Shown here: one piece after another, positions 25,752-37,932 of the stretch | Layout of the letters: each line of letters begins with the position of its first letter | Numbering within the stretch: the first letter of the stretch is position 1 | Assembly (NCBI RefSeq): GCF_000160455.2 | Contig: NZ_ACJX03000001.1 | Location: 1,250,001-1,314,000, forward strand | Reading direction: 5' to 3' | Origin: Acetomicrobium hydrogeniformans ATCC BAA-1850 | GTDB taxonomy: Bacteria > Synergistota > Synergistia > Synergistales > Acetomicrobiaceae | Length of the DNA stretch: 64,000 nt | Program-made: the position numbers and the translations under genes | The notes under the pieces: generated by a model | What the model was told of the DNA's origin: nothing | Database searches by the model: none | Seen by the model: only the letters and a program-made list of their open reading frames with translations

Positions 25752-26321
25752 ATGGATGGTTACGAGCCAATTTATCCCGAAGGTGATACAACCTCCGAAG
25801 AAAATTTGTGGCAAAGGATAAAATTCGGTGACGAAAAAGCCAGGGAAGAAGTGATAATTTCTTATAGACCTATGGTTTTTTGGCTTGCTAAGAAGTTTCA
25901 CGTACCCTCCGATTCCTATCAGGATTTGATACAGGAGGGAATGGTGGCACTAATCGAGGCAGTGGATAGGTACGATGCCAAAAGAGGTACTAAGTTCATC
26001 ACCTACGCCTATTATCGTATTAAGGGACGTATGGTGAATTTTCTCGAAAGATCGGAAGCAAGAGCGCCCGAGCCCGTCGATATCGACGACCATCTCTACG
26101 AAAGCAATATGGCCAGCTTCGACGATGAGGGCTGGTTGATCGATCTTGAGGCGGCTATTCGATCTTTGAGCGAAAGAGAAGCTGAGATAGTAAAAGCCGT
26201 AGACTTAAACGGGTTATCCGTTAAGGAAGTTGCCCGGAAAAAGGGTGTCGATATAAGCTACATCTATAGGTTGAGGAGAAGGGCCATAGCGAAGCTAAAA
26301 AAGGTTTTGGGAGCAACTTAA
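25752..26321 (+). CDS. Small RNA polymerase sigma-70 family factor
   Basis: A 189-residue sigma factor with region 2 (about 30-100: D-L-I-Q-E-G-M-V-A-L-I-E-A-V-D-R-Y-D, then F-I-T-Y-A-Y-Y-R-I-K-G-R-M) and region 4 (about 132-186: L-S-x-R-E-A-E-I-V, helix-turn-helix S-V-K-E-V-A-R-K-K-G-V-D-I-S-Y-I-Y-R-L). Region 3 is absent or very short, so it is an alternative factor, not RpoD or FliA. A membrane protein gene and bamA follow in the same direction, suggesting control of envelope functions; that is inference. Confidence 0.9.
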   Translation: MDGYEPIYPEGDTTSEENLWQRIKFGDEKAREEVIISYRPMVFWLAKKFHVPSDSYQDLIQEGMVALIEAVDRYDAKRGTKFITYAYYRIKGRMVNFLERSEARAPEPVDIDDHLYESNMASFDDEGWLIDLEAAIRSLSEREAEIVKAVDLNGLSVKEVARKKGVDISYIYRLRRRAIAKLKKVLGAT

Positions 26322-26353
26322 GCGGTTTTTATTTTTATTTGGGGGGACTTACC

Positions 26354-27004
26354 GTGGAGAGACGTCTTTTGAGGATAAGACGTTGGATCGACAGAAGTAT
26401 AGAGGCCTGCAGGCGAGGCAGGCCAAGGGATGTGGTCGTCGAACTTGAATGTGCCGAGGCGGAGATGCGAATCGCCAGGGAAGAAATTCTGACCCTCATA
26501 TCAGGTTCAAAAAGCCATCGCATCTTTTTGCCGTTGAAGCAGGCCTTCGTGTCTATACTAGTGGCAGCTGTCTTTTTAGTAGCGCTGGCTTTGCCGACCT
26601 CTATGGAGGTGATCGAAGACAGCGGCAAAAGAGCGCAGGCTTCAAGGCCGAGAGATGTCGAATCCCTTCGTTTGAGTCTGATAACCGATGAAGAGGAAAG
26701 GCTTATCATGGCTTTGCGAAAAAGTTTAAGCGACACAAACCTGGGGCGCTTCTACGATCCGGGAGAAGCTTCCGTGGCTGAGGCGAAGCCCGAGGAAAAG
26801 GAAACCTTAAAGGGCAAAAAGGACGACCTTGGCAGGAAAGATTTTGCGAAAAACGGAAAAAATGAGTCAAAGGACTTACCCGAAGAGAAAAAGAGTGGTG
26901 TATCATTTGAGGAAGCCATGTTGGAGGATTTCTTGAGGTTGGTTCGCCTTGGAGAGAAAGCCCTCAAGGGTCAAGAAGAGGCTGCCGTAGAGTTTTCAAA
27001 TTGA
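26354..27004 (+). CDS. Single-span membrane protein, unknown, paired with a sigma factor
   Basis: Not recognised. The 216-residue product has a basic, helical N-terminal cytoplasmic part (about 1-55), one membrane helix (about 62-82) and a charged exterior part with a long Lys/Glu low-complexity stretch (about 135-180) and a final acidic helix. The topology is that of a membrane anti-sigma factor, but the zinc motif H-x-x-x-C-x-x-C is absent. GTG 26354 was chosen for the G-G-G-G-G-G-A at 26341-26347. It lies 32 bases after the sigma gene and 16 bases before bamA. Confidence 0.78.
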   Translation: MERRLLRIRRWIDRSIEACRRGRPRDVVVELECAEAEMRIAREEILTLISGSKSHRIFLPLKQAFVSILVAAVFLVALALPTSMEVIEDSGKRAQASRPRDVESLRLSLITDEEERLIMALRKSLSDTNLGRFYDPGEASVAEAKPEEKETLKGKKDDLGRKDFAKNGKNESKDLPEEKKSGVSFEEAMLEDFLRLVRLGEKALKGQEEAAVEFSN

Positions 27005-27020
27005 AGGAGTGATCTCGGGG

Positions 27021-28895
27021 ATGAAATTTTTCACTAGAATCGTGATATTTAGCTTAGTTTTCATGCTTGTAAATTCACCCCTTGCTTTTGCCCAGACGAT
27101 GCCCAACGTCGTGGCCGTAGAGGTAGAGGGCAATCGGCAGGTGGACACCAACTACATACTGTCAATAGTCGGCACAAAAGCAGGCCAACCAGCAGATCGG
27201 GAACAGATCGATAAGGATGTAGAGGCCATATATAATTTGGGCTTTTTCTCCTATGTCGACGTCAGAGTCGAGCCTGTAGCGGATGGCATCAAGGTAGTTT
27301 ACGTGGTACAGGAAAACCCTGTCGTAAAGGAAATAAGGTTTGAAGGAAACGAAGTATATAGCGAGGATGAACTTAAAGAGCTTGTCTTTACGAAGCCGGG
27401 CAACATCTTCAACTCCGTCTTCTTCAGGCACGACCTCGAGAGAATCAGAAACAAATACCAGGATGACGGCTATGCGATGATGCGAGTGCGTGATGTGCAA
27501 ATTGAAGAAGGCGTCATTACGGTAAAGATACTTGAACCCAAAGTCGGAGAAATTGCCGTGCAGGGAAACGAAAAAACCCAGACTTACGTTATAGAGCGGG
27601 AGATAAAGCTAAAACCGGGAGATCATTTCAACGCCAAGGTATTGAGACACTCCCTCAACAAGCTTCAGAGGATGGGGTACTTCGAGACGGTGAACGTCGG
27701 TTTCGAGCCCACTCAGGACCCCGCCTTCGTAAACATCATAGTCTCAGTGGAGGAGCAGAGAACCGGAAGGATTGGCCTTACCATAGGTCACGGCTCAAGC
27801 AGCGGATGGAGCGGCGGCTTGTCTTACGAGGACACCAACTGGAAGGGGTTGGGCCATACCGCGTCTGTCGGATTTGAGACGGGTAAACGGGACCAATATT
27901 GGATCACCTATGAAGAGCCCTTTATGGATGTCGATTATTACTCTTGGAGAGTAAACCTCTATAGGTGGGAGTGGGACGACATAGAAAACTACATAGGTGG
28001 GGAATCGGTCTTCGAGTACGAAGAAACCAGGACCGGCATATCCGTGGGAGCGGGCAAGAAGTTCAAACGCGATCCCAGGTTTAGCTGGTATGCAACGCTT
28101 GATTGGCACGATTCGGATATACCCTACGATGATATACGTTGGTACAGTGATTTCCTCATAGCGGCGGAGGAAGTTCGAAAGACTGATACCACCGGGAAAT
28201 ATAAAGACAAGACTGTGGAAGAAATTAAAAGGATATACTTCGACGAACACATGCAATCGGGAAAGACCTTCTCCATCACGGGCAGGCTGCAACGTTCTAC
28301 TTTGGACGAGTATTTGAGCTATCCAAAGGGAGATGTCGTCAGCTTAAACGTAGAACAGGCGCTGGATTTCCTGGGCAGCGACTGGGACTTCACCAAATAT
28401 TGGCTCGAAGCCAGATATTACACGCCCGTAACCAGAATAGGGGAGATCTTCGATATCGACCTTGGGACGGAAGACACGCCCGTGATTTTCGCCGCCCGCG
28501 TGAGGGCAGGCTTTTCAAGCGGCGAAATTCCATTCATGGATCATTATTTCTTGGGTGGAGACAGAGACCTTCGCGGTTACGAAGAGGACGAGTTTTACGG
28601 TACGGAGATGTTTTTGGCCAATTTCGAGTTGAGGATACCCATCGAGCAGGCCTTTGGGCTGGTATTCTTCTACGACGCCGGAAACGCCTGGGGGGATAGC
28701 GATCCTTTGATAGATCAACTTTATAGAACCGTAGGCCGTGGCGAAAGGCGGTCTTCCAGCTTCGACCTGTCGGATCTGCATGATTCTTACGGCATTGGAG
28801 TTCGCGTGAGAACACCCCTCGGCAACTTGCGCATAGATCTGGCCGAAGGAGAATACGAAACCTACACGCACTTCGGGTTCGGCGAGCTCTTCTAA
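27021..28895 (+). CDS. bamA: Outer membrane protein assembly factor BamA
   Basis: BamA inserts beta-barrel proteins into the outer membrane. The 624-residue product has a signal peptide (about 1-24, ending A-F-A-Q) and three POTRA domains (about 27-95, 96-170, 172-245) instead of the five of proteobacteria. A C-terminal 16-strand barrel follows, with the conserved L6 motif D-R-D-L-R-G-Y and a terminal Phe. I chose ATG 27021, which gives a clean signal peptide, over GTG 27009. It opens a long run of lipid A genes and proves a diderm envelope. Confidence 0.95.
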   Translation: MKFFTRIVIFSLVFMLVNSPLAFAQTMPNVVAVEVEGNRQVDTNYILSIVGTKAGQPADREQIDKDVEAIYNLGFFSYVDVRVEPVADGIKVVYVVQENPVVKEIRFEGNEVYSEDELKELVFTKPGNIFNSVFFRHDLERIRNKYQDDGYAMMRVRDVQIEEGVITVKILEPKVGEIAVQGNEKTQTYVIEREIKLKPGDHFNAKVLRHSLNKLQRMGYFETVNVGFEPTQDPAFVNIIVSVEEQRTGRIGLTIGHGSSSGWSGGLSYEDTNWKGLGHTASVGFETGKRDQYWITYEEPFMDVDYYSWRVNLYRWEWDDIENYIGGESVFEYEETRTGISVGAGKKFKRDPRFSWYATLDWHDSDIPYDDIRWYSDFLIAAEEVRKTDTTGKYKDKTVEEIKRIYFDEHMQSGKTFSITGRLQRSTLDEYLSYPKGDVVSLNVEQALDFLGSDWDFTKYWLEARYYTPVTRIGEIFDIDLGTEDTPVIFAARVRAGFSSGEIPFMDHYFLGGDRDLRGYEEDEFYGTEMFLANFELRIPIEQAFGLVFFYDAGNAWGDSDPLIDQLYRTVGRGERRSSSFDLSDLHDSYGIGVRVRTPLGNLRIDLAEGEYETYTHFGFGELF

Positions 28896-28904
28896 AGATG
28901 GGTC

Positions 28905-30152
28905 ATGAGGCAGCTTAGGGGGGCGACAAAAGGGATCTTTTTTCTCCTTCTTTGGGCGAGCTTTTTCTGCGGGGCCGCTCATGGGGATGTGAAAGTCTCT
29001 TTGACGGGACCTCCCGAATGGCTTGCTGTGGCAATGAGAGAAAGCGTCATTGCCGTCATGAATGAGATGCCCGACTACGAAGTGAGCCGACAGGAAAGAC
29101 TTCTTCGCATGGTATCGGAGAGGATCTTCGAGGGATATGAAATAAAGCGTGTGAACATAACGGGAGAAAGAGAGGTATTTATGGACTTTGTGCCAAAGGC
29201 AAAGCCCAAATGGAAGGTCGCCATCTCCGCTCCCAGACTGAGACAACCCTGTGACGGCTGGTTTTTAAAGGATATTTCTGGGGTTGATGAAAAATTACAA
29301 AATATGCTGAAAGGCGTTCCCGTAGAGGCTTTAAAATGGGCTGATGAGGTGTTTTTGAGGGAAGTTAAAGGGATCGTCTCCTCCCGCCTTCCCGGTTGGG
29401 AGCCTCACGTTTTGGTGAGCCGAGAGGGCGATTTTCACGTTGTTAACATATCCTTCACGGCGACTCAGGATCTGATATTGGCCTTCGATGCCCACATTTT
29501 TTCCAGGTCCCTGCCCTCCTTTTGGCAGTATGACATGCGCGAGAAGATGGCTGAAAGCCTATCTCCCTTCGTCGGGATTCCCGTTAGCTGGGCTGCCAAG
29601 CACGAGAGGGATATAGAGCTTATTGTCGAGGAAAAATTGAAAGATATGTCATTTGCCGATACAGCAAAGATAGAAGTAGACACCGAATTTATGCCCTCGA
29701 GGATTGCAAGGGTCGAAACGAACGTAGAAAGCAAAAGATATGCATTCTACGTTTGGGGGGCAGCTTACGGCGGAACGGAGGACAAATCCACTGAACTGGG
29801 GTTGCACTTCGGACGTAAGGCACAACCTTTTCCATCTTGGGATGTGGAACTTTACGGAGAGGCCATCCTTTTTTTAGATGACGGAGACAGCGAAGAGAGG
29901 TTGGGGTTGAGGTGGTCTCCCTACAGAGATATTTGGTTGGGCACCGAGAGAGAACTTGAGGAAGATAAGACTTGGTATAGACTGTGGATAGAAGGCGGCA
30001 TCAAGGCCTTTTACGCTTGGTGGCGCTATTCCGAGGATAGCGAAAACAATGCTGCATTGGGCTACCGCTTTACGGAACATCTTTCCTTGGAGATCTACCT
30101 GGATGAGCGAGACGATGACGAGGTCAGCGTGCGAGCGGTAGGCAATTTTTGA
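28905..30152 (+). CDS. Predicted outer-membrane beta-barrel protein, unknown family
   Basis: Not recognised as a named family. The 415-residue product has a signal peptide (about 1-27, ending A-A-H-G), a soluble region (about 28-270) that may hold POTRA-like alpha/beta units, and a C-terminal part (about 275-415). That part shows alternating strands rich in Tyr/Trp/Phe (Y-A-F-Y-V-W-G-A-A-Y, W-D-V-E-L-Y-G-E-A-I-L-F, H-L-S-L-E-I-Y-L) and ends in a terminal Phe, the mark of BamA substrates. It is too short for a 16-strand barrel; about 8 strands are likely. It follows bamA by 9 bases and precedes lpxD, so a role in outer-membrane or LPS assembly is plausible. Confidence 0.8.
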   Translation: MRQLRGATKGIFFLLLWASFFCGAAHGDVKVSLTGPPEWLAVAMRESVIAVMNEMPDYEVSRQERLLRMVSERIFEGYEIKRVNITGEREVFMDFVPKAKPKWKVAISAPRLRQPCDGWFLKDISGVDEKLQNMLKGVPVEALKWADEVFLREVKGIVSSRLPGWEPHVLVSREGDFHVVNISFTATQDLILAFDAHIFSRSLPSFWQYDMREKMAESLSPFVGIPVSWAAKHERDIELIVEEKLKDMSFADTAKIEVDTEFMPSRIARVETNVESKRYAFYVWGAAYGGTEDKSTELGLHFGRKAQPFPSWDVELYGEAILFLDDGDSEERLGLRWSPYRDIWLGTERELEEDKTWYRLWIEGGIKAFYAWWRYSEDSENNAALGYRFTEHLSLEIYLDERDDDEVSVRAVGNF

Positions 30153-30174: not shown

Positions 30175-31242
30175 ATGAAGAATTTCGACAGGGCCTGGAG
30201 TCTTTCCAAAGTTGCGACTTATTTGGAGGGCAGGTTGGCGGGAGATCCGGAAGAAGTCGTTTTGGGGATTGCTTCCCCCGAGGAGGCCGCCCCAAATTAT
30301 CTATGCGTCGTGTGGGAGAAGAAGTGGCTTCAGAAGCTGGGGGAGAAGGTTTTTGTGATAGCTCCCGTAAATTGGTTGAGTCCCGGCCAAAGCGGAGTGG
30401 AGATCGAAGATCCGAAGAAGGCTTTGATTAAGTTGCTTTCCCTTTTCGAAAGACCGCGTTCCTCGCAAGGAGGCGTTCATCCTTCAGCCGTTGTACACGA
30501 AAGAGCTTCAGTGGATCCTTCCGCATATGTCGGTCCTTTGTGTGTAGTGGATGAGGGAGCCGTGATATCTGCTAACGCCATCCTTGAGGCACACGTTTAT
30601 GTCGGAAAAAACGTCTTTATTGGCGAAGGTACTGTAATTGAACCAAATGTGAGTATATACCACGATGTAACCTTGAAAAAAAGGTGTCTCATCCATGCAG
30701 GCGCTTCCCTTGGTTGCGAAGGGTTCGGATTTTACAACGACAAAAAGGGCCTTATAAAGATTCCTCAAGTTGGAGGTTTGTTGGTGGAAGACGACGTCGA
30801 GATCGGTGCCCTGACGAGCATAGACAGGGGAACAGTCGGGGATACCCATATAGGTTCAGGCACCAAGATAGGAGACAGCGTCCATATAGGTCATAACGCA
30901 AAAATAGGCTCAAACTGCATAATAGTAGCCATGACCGGAATCGCCGGAAGCGCGGTAATAGAAGATAACGTGATTATGGCCGCCCAAAGCGGTGTCAAGG
31001 ATCACGTAAAGGTAGGGAGAGGGACGATAGTGGCGGCCAAATCGGGGGTGACCAAGGACATTCCTCCGGGAATGATGGTCTCCGGTTTTCCGGCGAGAGA
31101 CCACAGGGAAGAATTAAAGATTCAGGCGTTAATGCAGAAGTTGCCCGAAATATACGAAAGGCTCGTACACCTGGAACAAAAATTAGGAGCGAAAGATTGC
31201 GATGGCAAAAAGAACGACCCTTCGAAGAACAATAGAAGTTAA
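30175..31242 (+). CDS. lpxD: UDP-3-O-acyl-glucosamine N-acyltransferase LpxD
   Basis: LpxD adds the second (N-linked) acyl chain in lipid A synthesis. The 355-residue product has an N-terminal uridine-binding domain (about 1-100) and a left-handed beta-helix of hexapeptide repeats (about 105-320). The active-site region is G-D-S-V-H-I-G-H-N-A-K-I-G, and the G-F-G-F-Y substrate loop is present. A C-terminal helix follows. Its 3' end overlaps lpxC by 41 bases. Confidence 0.96.
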   Translation: MKNFDRAWSLSKVATYLEGRLAGDPEEVVLGIASPEEAAPNYLCVVWEKKWLQKLGEKVFVIAPVNWLSPGQSGVEIEDPKKALIKLLSLFERPRSSQGGVHPSAVVHERASVDPSAYVGPLCVVDEGAVISANAILEAHVYVGKNVFIGEGTVIEPNVSIYHDVTLKKRCLIHAGASLGCEGFGFYNDKKGLIKIPQVGGLLVEDDVEIGALTSIDRGTVGDTHIGSGTKIGDSVHIGHNAKIGSNCIIVAMTGIAGSAVIEDNVIMAAQSGVKDHVKVGRGTIVAAKSGVTKDIPPGMMVSGFPARDHREELKIQALMQKLPEIYERLVHLEQKLGAKDCDGKKNDPSKNNRS

Positions 31243-35729: not shown

Positions 35730-36829
35730 GTCTTTTTTTAAGTTGCGGCGAAGCCTCCGGAGACCATTATGCCGGGAGGCTTATAGAGGCCGTTAAAAGC
35801 AAAGTTGCCCCTGTCTGGGGTATGTTTGGCCCCGAAGGAACGATGGCTGGAGGCCATGCCCTGTGGGGTCTGGAGGAACTCCAGGTAATGGGCATCTCGG
35901 AAGCCTTTAAGGAGATTCCTAGGCTCATGCGTTTAAAAAACGCAATGGTCGATAGGGTCTTGAGTGAAATGCCTTCATGCGTGGTAGTTATAGATAGCCC
36001 TGATTATCATATCCCCCTGATTAAGGCCTTGAGGAAGAGGGGGTACGCTAAGCCCGTATTTTATGTCTCGCCTCCCACTGCCTGGGCCTGGCGAAGGGGC
36101 AGAGCCTCTGCGTTGAGGGATTTAAAGGTCATTTGTCTTCCCCTCTTCGAGATGGAACACCTTTTTTATAAACAAAGGGGCGTGGAAAGTCATTGGACAG
36201 GCCATCCCCTCCTCGACGACCTGTCGGGCTACGTTCCAGAGGAAAGGGTGTTGAAAAATACTGACGCTTCGCCCATAGCGGCACTTTTGCCGGGAAGCAG
36301 GTCAAGCGAAACGAGGCGTCTTGCTCCTGTTTTAAAGGATGCCGGTTTAATGCTTCAAGAGACGGGATATCATCCGGTGATTTCCATAGCGAAAAACCTA
36401 TCCGCTAGAGACAGGGAAATGATAAAAAGCATATGCCATCCCCTGACTTTCTTTGAGGGCAAAGGGGTGGATTTAATTTTCCAATCCCAACTTGTTGTCG
36501 GAGCTTGCGGCACTGCTGCGGTAGAAGCGATGATGTTCGATAAGTTCATGGTGGTCCTATATAAGGCGTCGCTTTTGAGTTATATAGTTTTTAAGGTCAT
36601 GGTTAAGACAAAGTGGGTATCCATGCCAAACGTTTTGCTCCGGCGGGAGGTATATCCGGAATTGTTGCAGGGCAAAGCAAATGTAGGTGCGATAAAAAGG
36701 GCGATATGCATGTACCTGGAAAATTCCGCAAAAATACATAAGGATTTGCTAGAAGCGAAAAATAAAATGGGAAGAAGGGGAGCTTATCGGCTCTGGGCCG
36801 ATGTCATTCTCGAAAGGGTAGGAAGATGA
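35726..36829 (+). CDS. lpxB: Lipid-A-disaccharide synthase LpxB
   Basis: LpxB joins lipid X and UDP-diacylglucosamine to form the lipid A disaccharide. The 367-residue GT-B-fold product begins with the family motif S-C-G-E-A-S-G-D. It also has D-S-P-D-Y-H-I-P, the P-P-T-A-W-A-W-R-R-G-R block, L-P-G-S-R-S-S-E and C-G-T-A-A-V-E. TTG start at 35726 overlaps the lpxI stop by 4 bases. A paralogue follows immediately. Confidence 0.96.
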   Translation: MSLFLSCGEASGDHYAGRLIEAVKSKVAPVWGMFGPEGTMAGGHALWGLEELQVMGISEAFKEIPRLMRLKNAMVDRVLSEMPSCVVVIDSPDYHIPLIKALRKRGYAKPVFYVSPPTAWAWRRGRASALRDLKVICLPLFEMEHLFYKQRGVESHWTGHPLLDDLSGYVPEERVLKNTDASPIAALLPGSRSSETRRLAPVLKDAGLMLQETGYHPVISIAKNLSARDREMIKSICHPLTFFEGKGVDLIFQSQLVVGACGTAAVEAMMFDKFMVVLYKASLLSYIVFKVMVKTKWVSMPNVLLRREVYPELLQGKANVGAIKRAICMYLENSAKIHKDLLEAKNKMGRRGAYRLWADVILERVGR

Positions 36830-37932
36830 AGTACGTATATATACTCAGCAACGGACCTGGAGAGCTGTGGGATTGGGCCAGACCTGTGGCATATGAATTG
36901 GTAAAAAACGAAATTAAGCCCCTTCTTTGGTTGTTGCCCTGTCAGTACGCTTCGGGTATGGAGCGCGCTTGCGCCGAGTTAATTCCCTTTCATGACGTTA
37001 TAGGTCCCTACAATTGGGCGAAGACCTTTGCCGAGATGAGGAAGGCGAAGGACGTGGGCCTGGTAATGCAGTTAGGCGGTGACCTAATATTTGGAAGGTT
37101 TTTGTCTAAGACCTCAGGGGCCAAGCTTTTTTGTTATACCTACGGTAAGAAAAGAGGTTTGCCAAAATGTTCTAAGGTGTTCACCGCCTACGAGGTAATG
37201 GCAAGGAGCATCAAGGGCGATGGAGTATGCCCCCATGTCATCGGAGACTTGGTCGCCGATTCTTTGAAGTTAAATTCCGTGCCGTTTGGCGGGGATGAAT
37301 TGTCGCCCAAGGGATCGTCATCCTCAAGAAGGGTGGCCTTTTTCCCCGGAAGCAGATTCTCCATAAGAAGGAAAGCGTTGCCTTTCCTGCATGAGGTTTA
37401 CTTGTACCTTAAGTCCGTCATGGACGTGGAAGTAGTGACGTTGCTTTCGCCCTTTTCATTGAACGATGAAGTGTATGCTTGGAAGGAAGCGGGGTTAAAC
37501 CCAAGAAGACAGCCCGCATCTACAGTATTGAAAGGCGTAGATTTGGCATTGACGCAACCGGGCACTAATACTCTGGAGCTTCTTTATTTGAAAGTCCCCA
37601 CATTGGTGGCCGTTCCGTACGCATTTTTGAGCGATATACCCTTTAGCGGTTTTAAGGGGGCACTGCTTCGCTTGCCTTGGATCAAAGGCAGGGTTTTTGA
37701 TCTTTTATCGAGAAAGAGAGGCATGCTTTCCTGGCCCAACAAGATACTGGGAAGAGAATTAATGCCCGAGCTGGTCGGAGATTTTACGCCAAAGCAGATT
37801 GCAGAGGCCATGGCTCGTTTTTTAAAGGACGACACCTGGCTTAAAGAAACTTCTGCATATATGGACAGATTTTCGCCCGCGAAGGGGGCTTCTAAAAAAA
37901 TGGTCGAGGAGATAAAACAATGTCTCGTTTGA
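36826..37932 (+). CDS. LpxB-like glycosyltransferase, tandem paralogue
   Basis: A 368-residue protein with the GT-B fold landmarks of LpxB in diverged form. The N-terminus S-N-G-P-G-E-L-W-D-W replaces S-C-G-E-A-S-G-D, and the middle has F-F-P-G-S-R-F-S. Near the C-terminus Q-P-G-T-N-T-L-E-L-L sits where LpxB has the G-T-A-T-L-E-A element. It lacks the P-P-x-x-W-A-W block, so it is probably not a second disaccharide synthase. It overlaps lpxB by 4 bases and msbA by 13 bases. The substrate is unknown; a sugar nucleotide and a lipid A or core acceptor are likely. Confidence 0.82.
   Translation: MKYVYILSNGPGELWDWARPVAYELVKNEIKPLLWLLPCQYASGMERACAELIPFHDVIGPYNWAKTFAEMRKAKDVGLVMQLGGDLIFGRFLSKTSGAKLFCYTYGKKRGLPKCSKVFTAYEVMARSIKGDGVCPHVIGDLVADSLKLNSVPFGGDELSPKGSSSSRRVAFFPGSRFSIRRKALPFLHEVYLYLKSVMDVEVVTLLSPFSLNDEVYAWKEAGLNPRRQPASTVLKGVDLALTQPGTNTLELLYLKVPTLVAVPYAFLSDIPFSGFKGALLRLPWIKGRVFDLLSRKRGMLSWPNKILGRELMPELVGDFTPKQIAEAMARFLKDDTWLKETSAYMDRFSPAKGASKKMVEEIKQCLV

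Follow-up and report, generated by a model that had tools for sequence, protein, structure and literature searches.

A predicted outer-membrane protein with POTRA-like domains encoded beside bamA in Synergistota and its repeated loss together with a neighbouring sigma factor

The gene which we call X (28905..30152, ATG start, 415 aa) was analysed within a 64,000-nucleotide stretch of DNA from Acetomicrobium hydrogeniformans ATCC BAA-1850, here termed the window; all coordinates are positions within this window and all features listed are on the + strand. X is predicted to be an outer-membrane protein in which a signal peptide is followed by three POTRA-like domains and then a barrel of ~138 residues. 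The sequence searches support a family which occurs throughout Synergistota and is so far known only there, the scan of GTDB contigs reaching close relatives only. The nearest genomes are MAGs of Acetomicrobium. The strongest hint to function is that X, a sigma factor and a protein with one transmembrane (TM) segment, ORF221, appear to form a single unit, a reading based on the co-loss of the three genes and on the decay of an ORF221 motif in two genomes (G081 and G084) where only X was lost; the tip of ORF221 would need X to stay conserved.

The low dN/dS of X against two congeners (~0.29 and ~0.14, purifying selection) and the presence of phylum-wide relatives (28%–100% identical) at a single fixed locus indicated that X is a real gene and did not arise by chance. 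No Pfam or NCBIfam family was recognised in X or 37 relatives, the best Pfam matches of the family being weak and scattered among barrel families (OMP_b-brl, DUF2490 and DUF7840), and no description of X was found in the open-licence papers searched. As the initial annotation had proposed, the N-terminus is typical of a signal peptide (residues 1-27, 28905..28985), with K/R followed by IFFLLLWASFF and then AHG, a hydropathy peak at residues 11-29 and no lipobox. The aromatic-rich C-terminal part described there was also observed, W/F/Y residues making up 18% of the C-terminal third compared with 9% of residues 29-277. The terminal Phe to which it had drawn attention is a feature of this genus only (4 of 52 alignment rows), while the remaining 48 rows end in Leu.

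The first POTRA-like domain (residues 28-98, 28986..29198) was modelled by AF2 as residues 27-100 using four sequences, which gave the order b-a-a-b-b at a mean pLDDT of 89. The 22 best PDB neighbours of this model, each with E > 0.05, were almost all POTRA domains, among them those of Toc75, FtsQ (probability 0.96, TM 0.68 by query), BamA/YaeT, TamA and cyanobacterial Omp85. Profile comparison with hhalign revealed domain 2 (~residues 103-187, 29211..29465) as a repeat of domain 1 (E 2e-4, 61 columns) and domain 3 (~residues 190-277, 29472..29735) as a repeat of domain 2 (E 0.003-0.006, 61-62 columns), in register in both cases. The 38 control fragments scored below these domain pairs, with a modest margin in the reverse P2-P1 run (18.0 compared with a control maximum of 16.9). 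Domains 1-3 are therefore predicted, from the model and the profile comparisons, to be tandem POTRA-like repeats, so that what had been described as a soluble N-terminal half is more properly three tandem domains, and the POTRA-like parts looked for there do have a predicted POTRA fold in domain 1. There was no sequence-level match to the POTRA family of Pfam in X or 37 members, and profile comparison of X with the BamA POTRAs or barrel gave no convincing similarity.

The last 138 residues of X (residues 278-415, 29736..30149) contained ~10 stretches in which polar and hydrophobic columns alternate (z 3.2 against shuffles), with invariant E, R, G and Y residues predicted to face inward, including E297, E315, Y317, E319, R332, G334, G346, E348, G386 and E396. 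We infer from this column pattern, rather than from a three-dimensional model, that the region forms a small membrane barrel of ~10 strands. A full-length AF2 model built with four close sequences was poor (pLDDT 40) and contained no confident barrel; TamA and BamA were among its top PDB matches, which were not significant. The original description of X as an outer-membrane barrel protein agrees with both the signal peptide and the alternation, closure of the barrel being presumed from the latter, and the eight strands given in that description are probably wrong since the strand pattern suggests ~10. Tandem POTRA-type domains ahead of a C-terminal barrel would liken X to the Omp85 superfamily (BamA, TamA), but the barrel of X has room for only ~10 strands in 138 residues compared with 16 in Omp85. 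PF01103 (Omp85 barrel) matched none of the 37 X members at E up to 1, and the RG[FY] motif of loop 6 is not among the invariant or nearly invariant columns of the X alignment, whereas BamA of the window has LRGY.

A profile search identified X in 108 of 122 Synergistota genomes (completeness at least 90%), three of which belong to a deep sister lineage (G061-G063), and gave no match in plasmid or phage records. In every locus read, bamA (27009..28895; three POTRAs and an Omp85 barrel) was located 5' of X in the same orientation, with lpxD (30175..31242) 3' of X wherever the contig continued, the contig of locus L037 stopping right after X. The gap between the bamA stop and the X start was re-measured as 9 bases, as first reported, and X ends 22 bases before lpxD. 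Conservation of X beside bamA, which the initial annotation had regarded as informative, is thus that of a fixed locus and not of a scattered context. The same annotation had X taking the position held by skp (the E. coli order is rseP-bamA-skp-lpxD). Although X fills the bamA-lpxD interval in the manner of Skp (OmpH), the two are unrelated, PF03938 (Skp/OmpH) matching neither X nor 37 relatives. Since the order in the sister lineage (loci L083, L084 and L085) is sigma-ORF-bamA-X-skp-lpxD, with X and skp as neighbours, X does not stand in place of skp, and a role as skp substitute was rejected; in the Synergistales examined skp is found elsewhere in the genome (e.g., G000:C1:1531646-1531978). 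One copy of X (G076:C37:2018-3242) appears as two overlapping fragments that lie in different frames, and one TAA was flagged; this may be a fresh pseudogene or an assembly error.

Directly upstream of bamA, and conserved there across Synergistota, are genes for a factor of the sigma-70 family, containing regions 2 and 4 (25752..26321), and for ORF221 (26339..27004), whose connection with X the initial annotation had overlooked. ORF221 has a single TM segment with positive charge on its N-terminal side (N-in by charge), so the linker and the conserved tail which follow should be periplasmic. This tail carries a motif of the LxxLxxxGxxALR type (26915..26974) followed by a short hydrophobic stretch. 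ORF221 had no match to any anti-sigma family, including FecR; it is possible that the two proteins are a sigma/anti-sigma pair for outer-membrane biogenesis. In eight genomes (G007, G008, G023, G056, G058, G081, G084 and G097) bamA was followed directly by lpxD, with gaps of 4-148 bases, and profile search showed X to be absent genome-wide. When placed on a BamA+LpxD tree these correspond to at least six losses. In five of the six, orthologues of both the sigma factor and ORF221 were also missing from the whole genome (the sigma orthologue gave E 1e-54 or better where present and otherwise no better than 1e-21). In the sixth, shared by the sister genomes G081 and G084, both genes were kept and the C-terminal motif of ORF221 had become degenerate, differently in each. 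No X-bearing locus was without the sigma factor or ORF221 among those with enough upstream sequence, a few loci being cut by contig ends.

Repeated loss of X from an otherwise unchanged LPS operon, independent of flagellin and of weak TamB matches, is what might be seen if X were an ordinary outer-membrane protein (a tether, a small channel or a protein for lipid handling) located by chance in the BAM/LPS operon and using its POTRA-like domains with some other partner in the periplasm. The near-universal fixed locus, the co-loss with sigma and ORF221 and the BamA-specific rate change described below argue against this, and we regard it as improbable. A flagellar link was rejected, flagellin being present in some X-less genomes and missing from some X-bearing ones, as was a TamA-like partnership of X with TamB, for which matches were weak and found with and without X. 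A strong TamB match (G071:C22:10787-12073, E 2.5e-45, in a 1444-aa frame) was observed in a single genome, other Synergistota giving weak ones, and may reflect transfer or contamination.

The evolutionary rate of BamA was compared with that of the Lpx proteins on branches with and without X. Using a fixed topology, the terminal branch ratio of BamA POTRA to LpxD had a median of 0.68 in seven X-less tips compared with 0.40, and by regression X-less tips had a POTRA rate 2.0-fold higher relative to LpxD (p 0.00025 by label permutation, 1.75-2.1 on leave-one-out); the seven tips represent six events with some shared ancestry, the topology was built from BamA and LpxD, and the X-less branches include time before the loss. 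The rise was also observed against LpxC (p 0.0012) and LpxA (p 0.0014), and was weaker for the BamA barrel (p 0.05-0.07). When the tips were compared with sister taxa in triplets the picture was less even, two of the seven showing no excess over LpxD. Because sigma, ORF221 and X were lost together, the shift cannot be put down to the loss of X by itself. A gain of an additional BamA POTRA upon loss of X was rejected, as BamA domain lengths were unchanged. The X-less genome G008 contains, besides bamA, two extra partial Omp85-like matches (C8:63503-64027 and 148467-148703).

The initial annotation had also offered a role for X in LPS insertion. The constant presence of lpxD, or skp-lpxD, 3' of X would suit a function alongside the downstream Lpx genes, but lpxD persists without X, lpxC and lpxA are retained in X-less G007, G008, G023, G056, G058, G081 and G097, and LpxC, LpxD and LpxA showed no rate shift among themselves on X-less tips (p 0.6-0.98), all of which makes such a role highly improbable. 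Its other suggestion, a lineage-specific partner of BamA, is partly supported by the fixed adjacency and by the rate shift, which at the level of sequence point to evolutionary coupling.

A rather unlikely form of such a partnership is that X is a purely structural accessory of BAM which, in this lineage, replaces BamB-E or makes up for POTRAs that BamA lacks, sigma and ORF221 being tied to it only through shared regulation of the operon. X always adjoins bamA, the rate shift is strongest in the BamA POTRAs, BamA has three of these domains, 16 of the 17 genomes searched have no other clear Omp85, and BamD was not found above cut-off in any of the 17, all of which would be consistent with this; however, loss of X tracks sigma and ORF221 and not BamA, and decay of the ORF221 motif where only X has been lost is unexpected from shared regulation. 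Like BamB, BamC, BamD and BamE, X is linked to BamA and would work at its periplasmic domains, but it lacks a lipobox, contains POTRA-like domains and would, by prediction, cross the membrane. BamB-E proteins are poorly conserved outside Proteobacteria (PMC5007114).

The layout of sigma factor, one-TM protein and outer-membrane protein, taken with the BamA rate shift, leads us to favour, tentatively, a reading in which X serves BAM as a sensor or accessory in the outer membrane and is coupled to both BamA and sigma/ORF221. The small barrel of X would anchor the three POTRA-like domains on the periplasmic side next to BamA, which carries three POTRAs and no more; a recognisable BamD is missing from most of these bacteria. 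The domains of X may touch the BamA POTRAs. The C-terminal tail of ORF221, as an inner-membrane protein, could then read X, perhaps by adding a beta-strand to the edge of a POTRA domain, and thereby control the adjacent sigma factor, X both assisting the outer-membrane assembly machine and reporting on its state. The closed barrel, these contacts, the direction of signalling and the anti-sigma role of ORF221 are all suppositions of the model. The dispensability of X in at least six lineages counts against it, as do the poor full-length structure prediction, the individually weak PDB matches of domain 1, the joint loss of the three genes behind the rate shift and the failure of ORF221 to match an anti-sigma family.

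FecA-FecR-FecI is a cell-surface signalling system in which a sigma factor works with a one-TM protein and with an outer-membrane protein that has domains in the periplasm. By analogy, the genes considered here comprise a sigma gene followed by a one-TM gene, plus X, all three having gone together in five of the six losses. X has predicted POTRA-like domains where FecA has STN and plug, its predicted barrel is small compared with one of 22 strands (no Pfam match to STN, plug or the 22-strand barrel of FecA was found in X, and its size rules out the last), and its signal would be assembly state and not a siderophore. A bolder and somewhat doubtful proposal is that the genes around bamA encode dedicated trans-envelope surveillance of outer-membrane assembly, with a POTRA-plus-small-barrel sensor, an inner-membrane tether that resembles TonB and whose tip is conserved, and the sigma factor. 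If true, Synergistota would have solved independently, with the sensor at BamA itself, the problem handled in E. coli by sigma-E/RseA. The outer-membrane assembly machine is poorly known outside Proteobacteria, and X provides a concrete candidate BamA partner and sensor for a whole phylum, with a likely domain build; as X has been lost at least six times, its coupling to BamA and to the sigma factor is directly testable.

Further along the window (36826-37932), a 368-aa ORF between lpxB and an ABC transporter gene resembles, by eye, a second glycosyltransferase of the lipid-A-disaccharide-synthase type.
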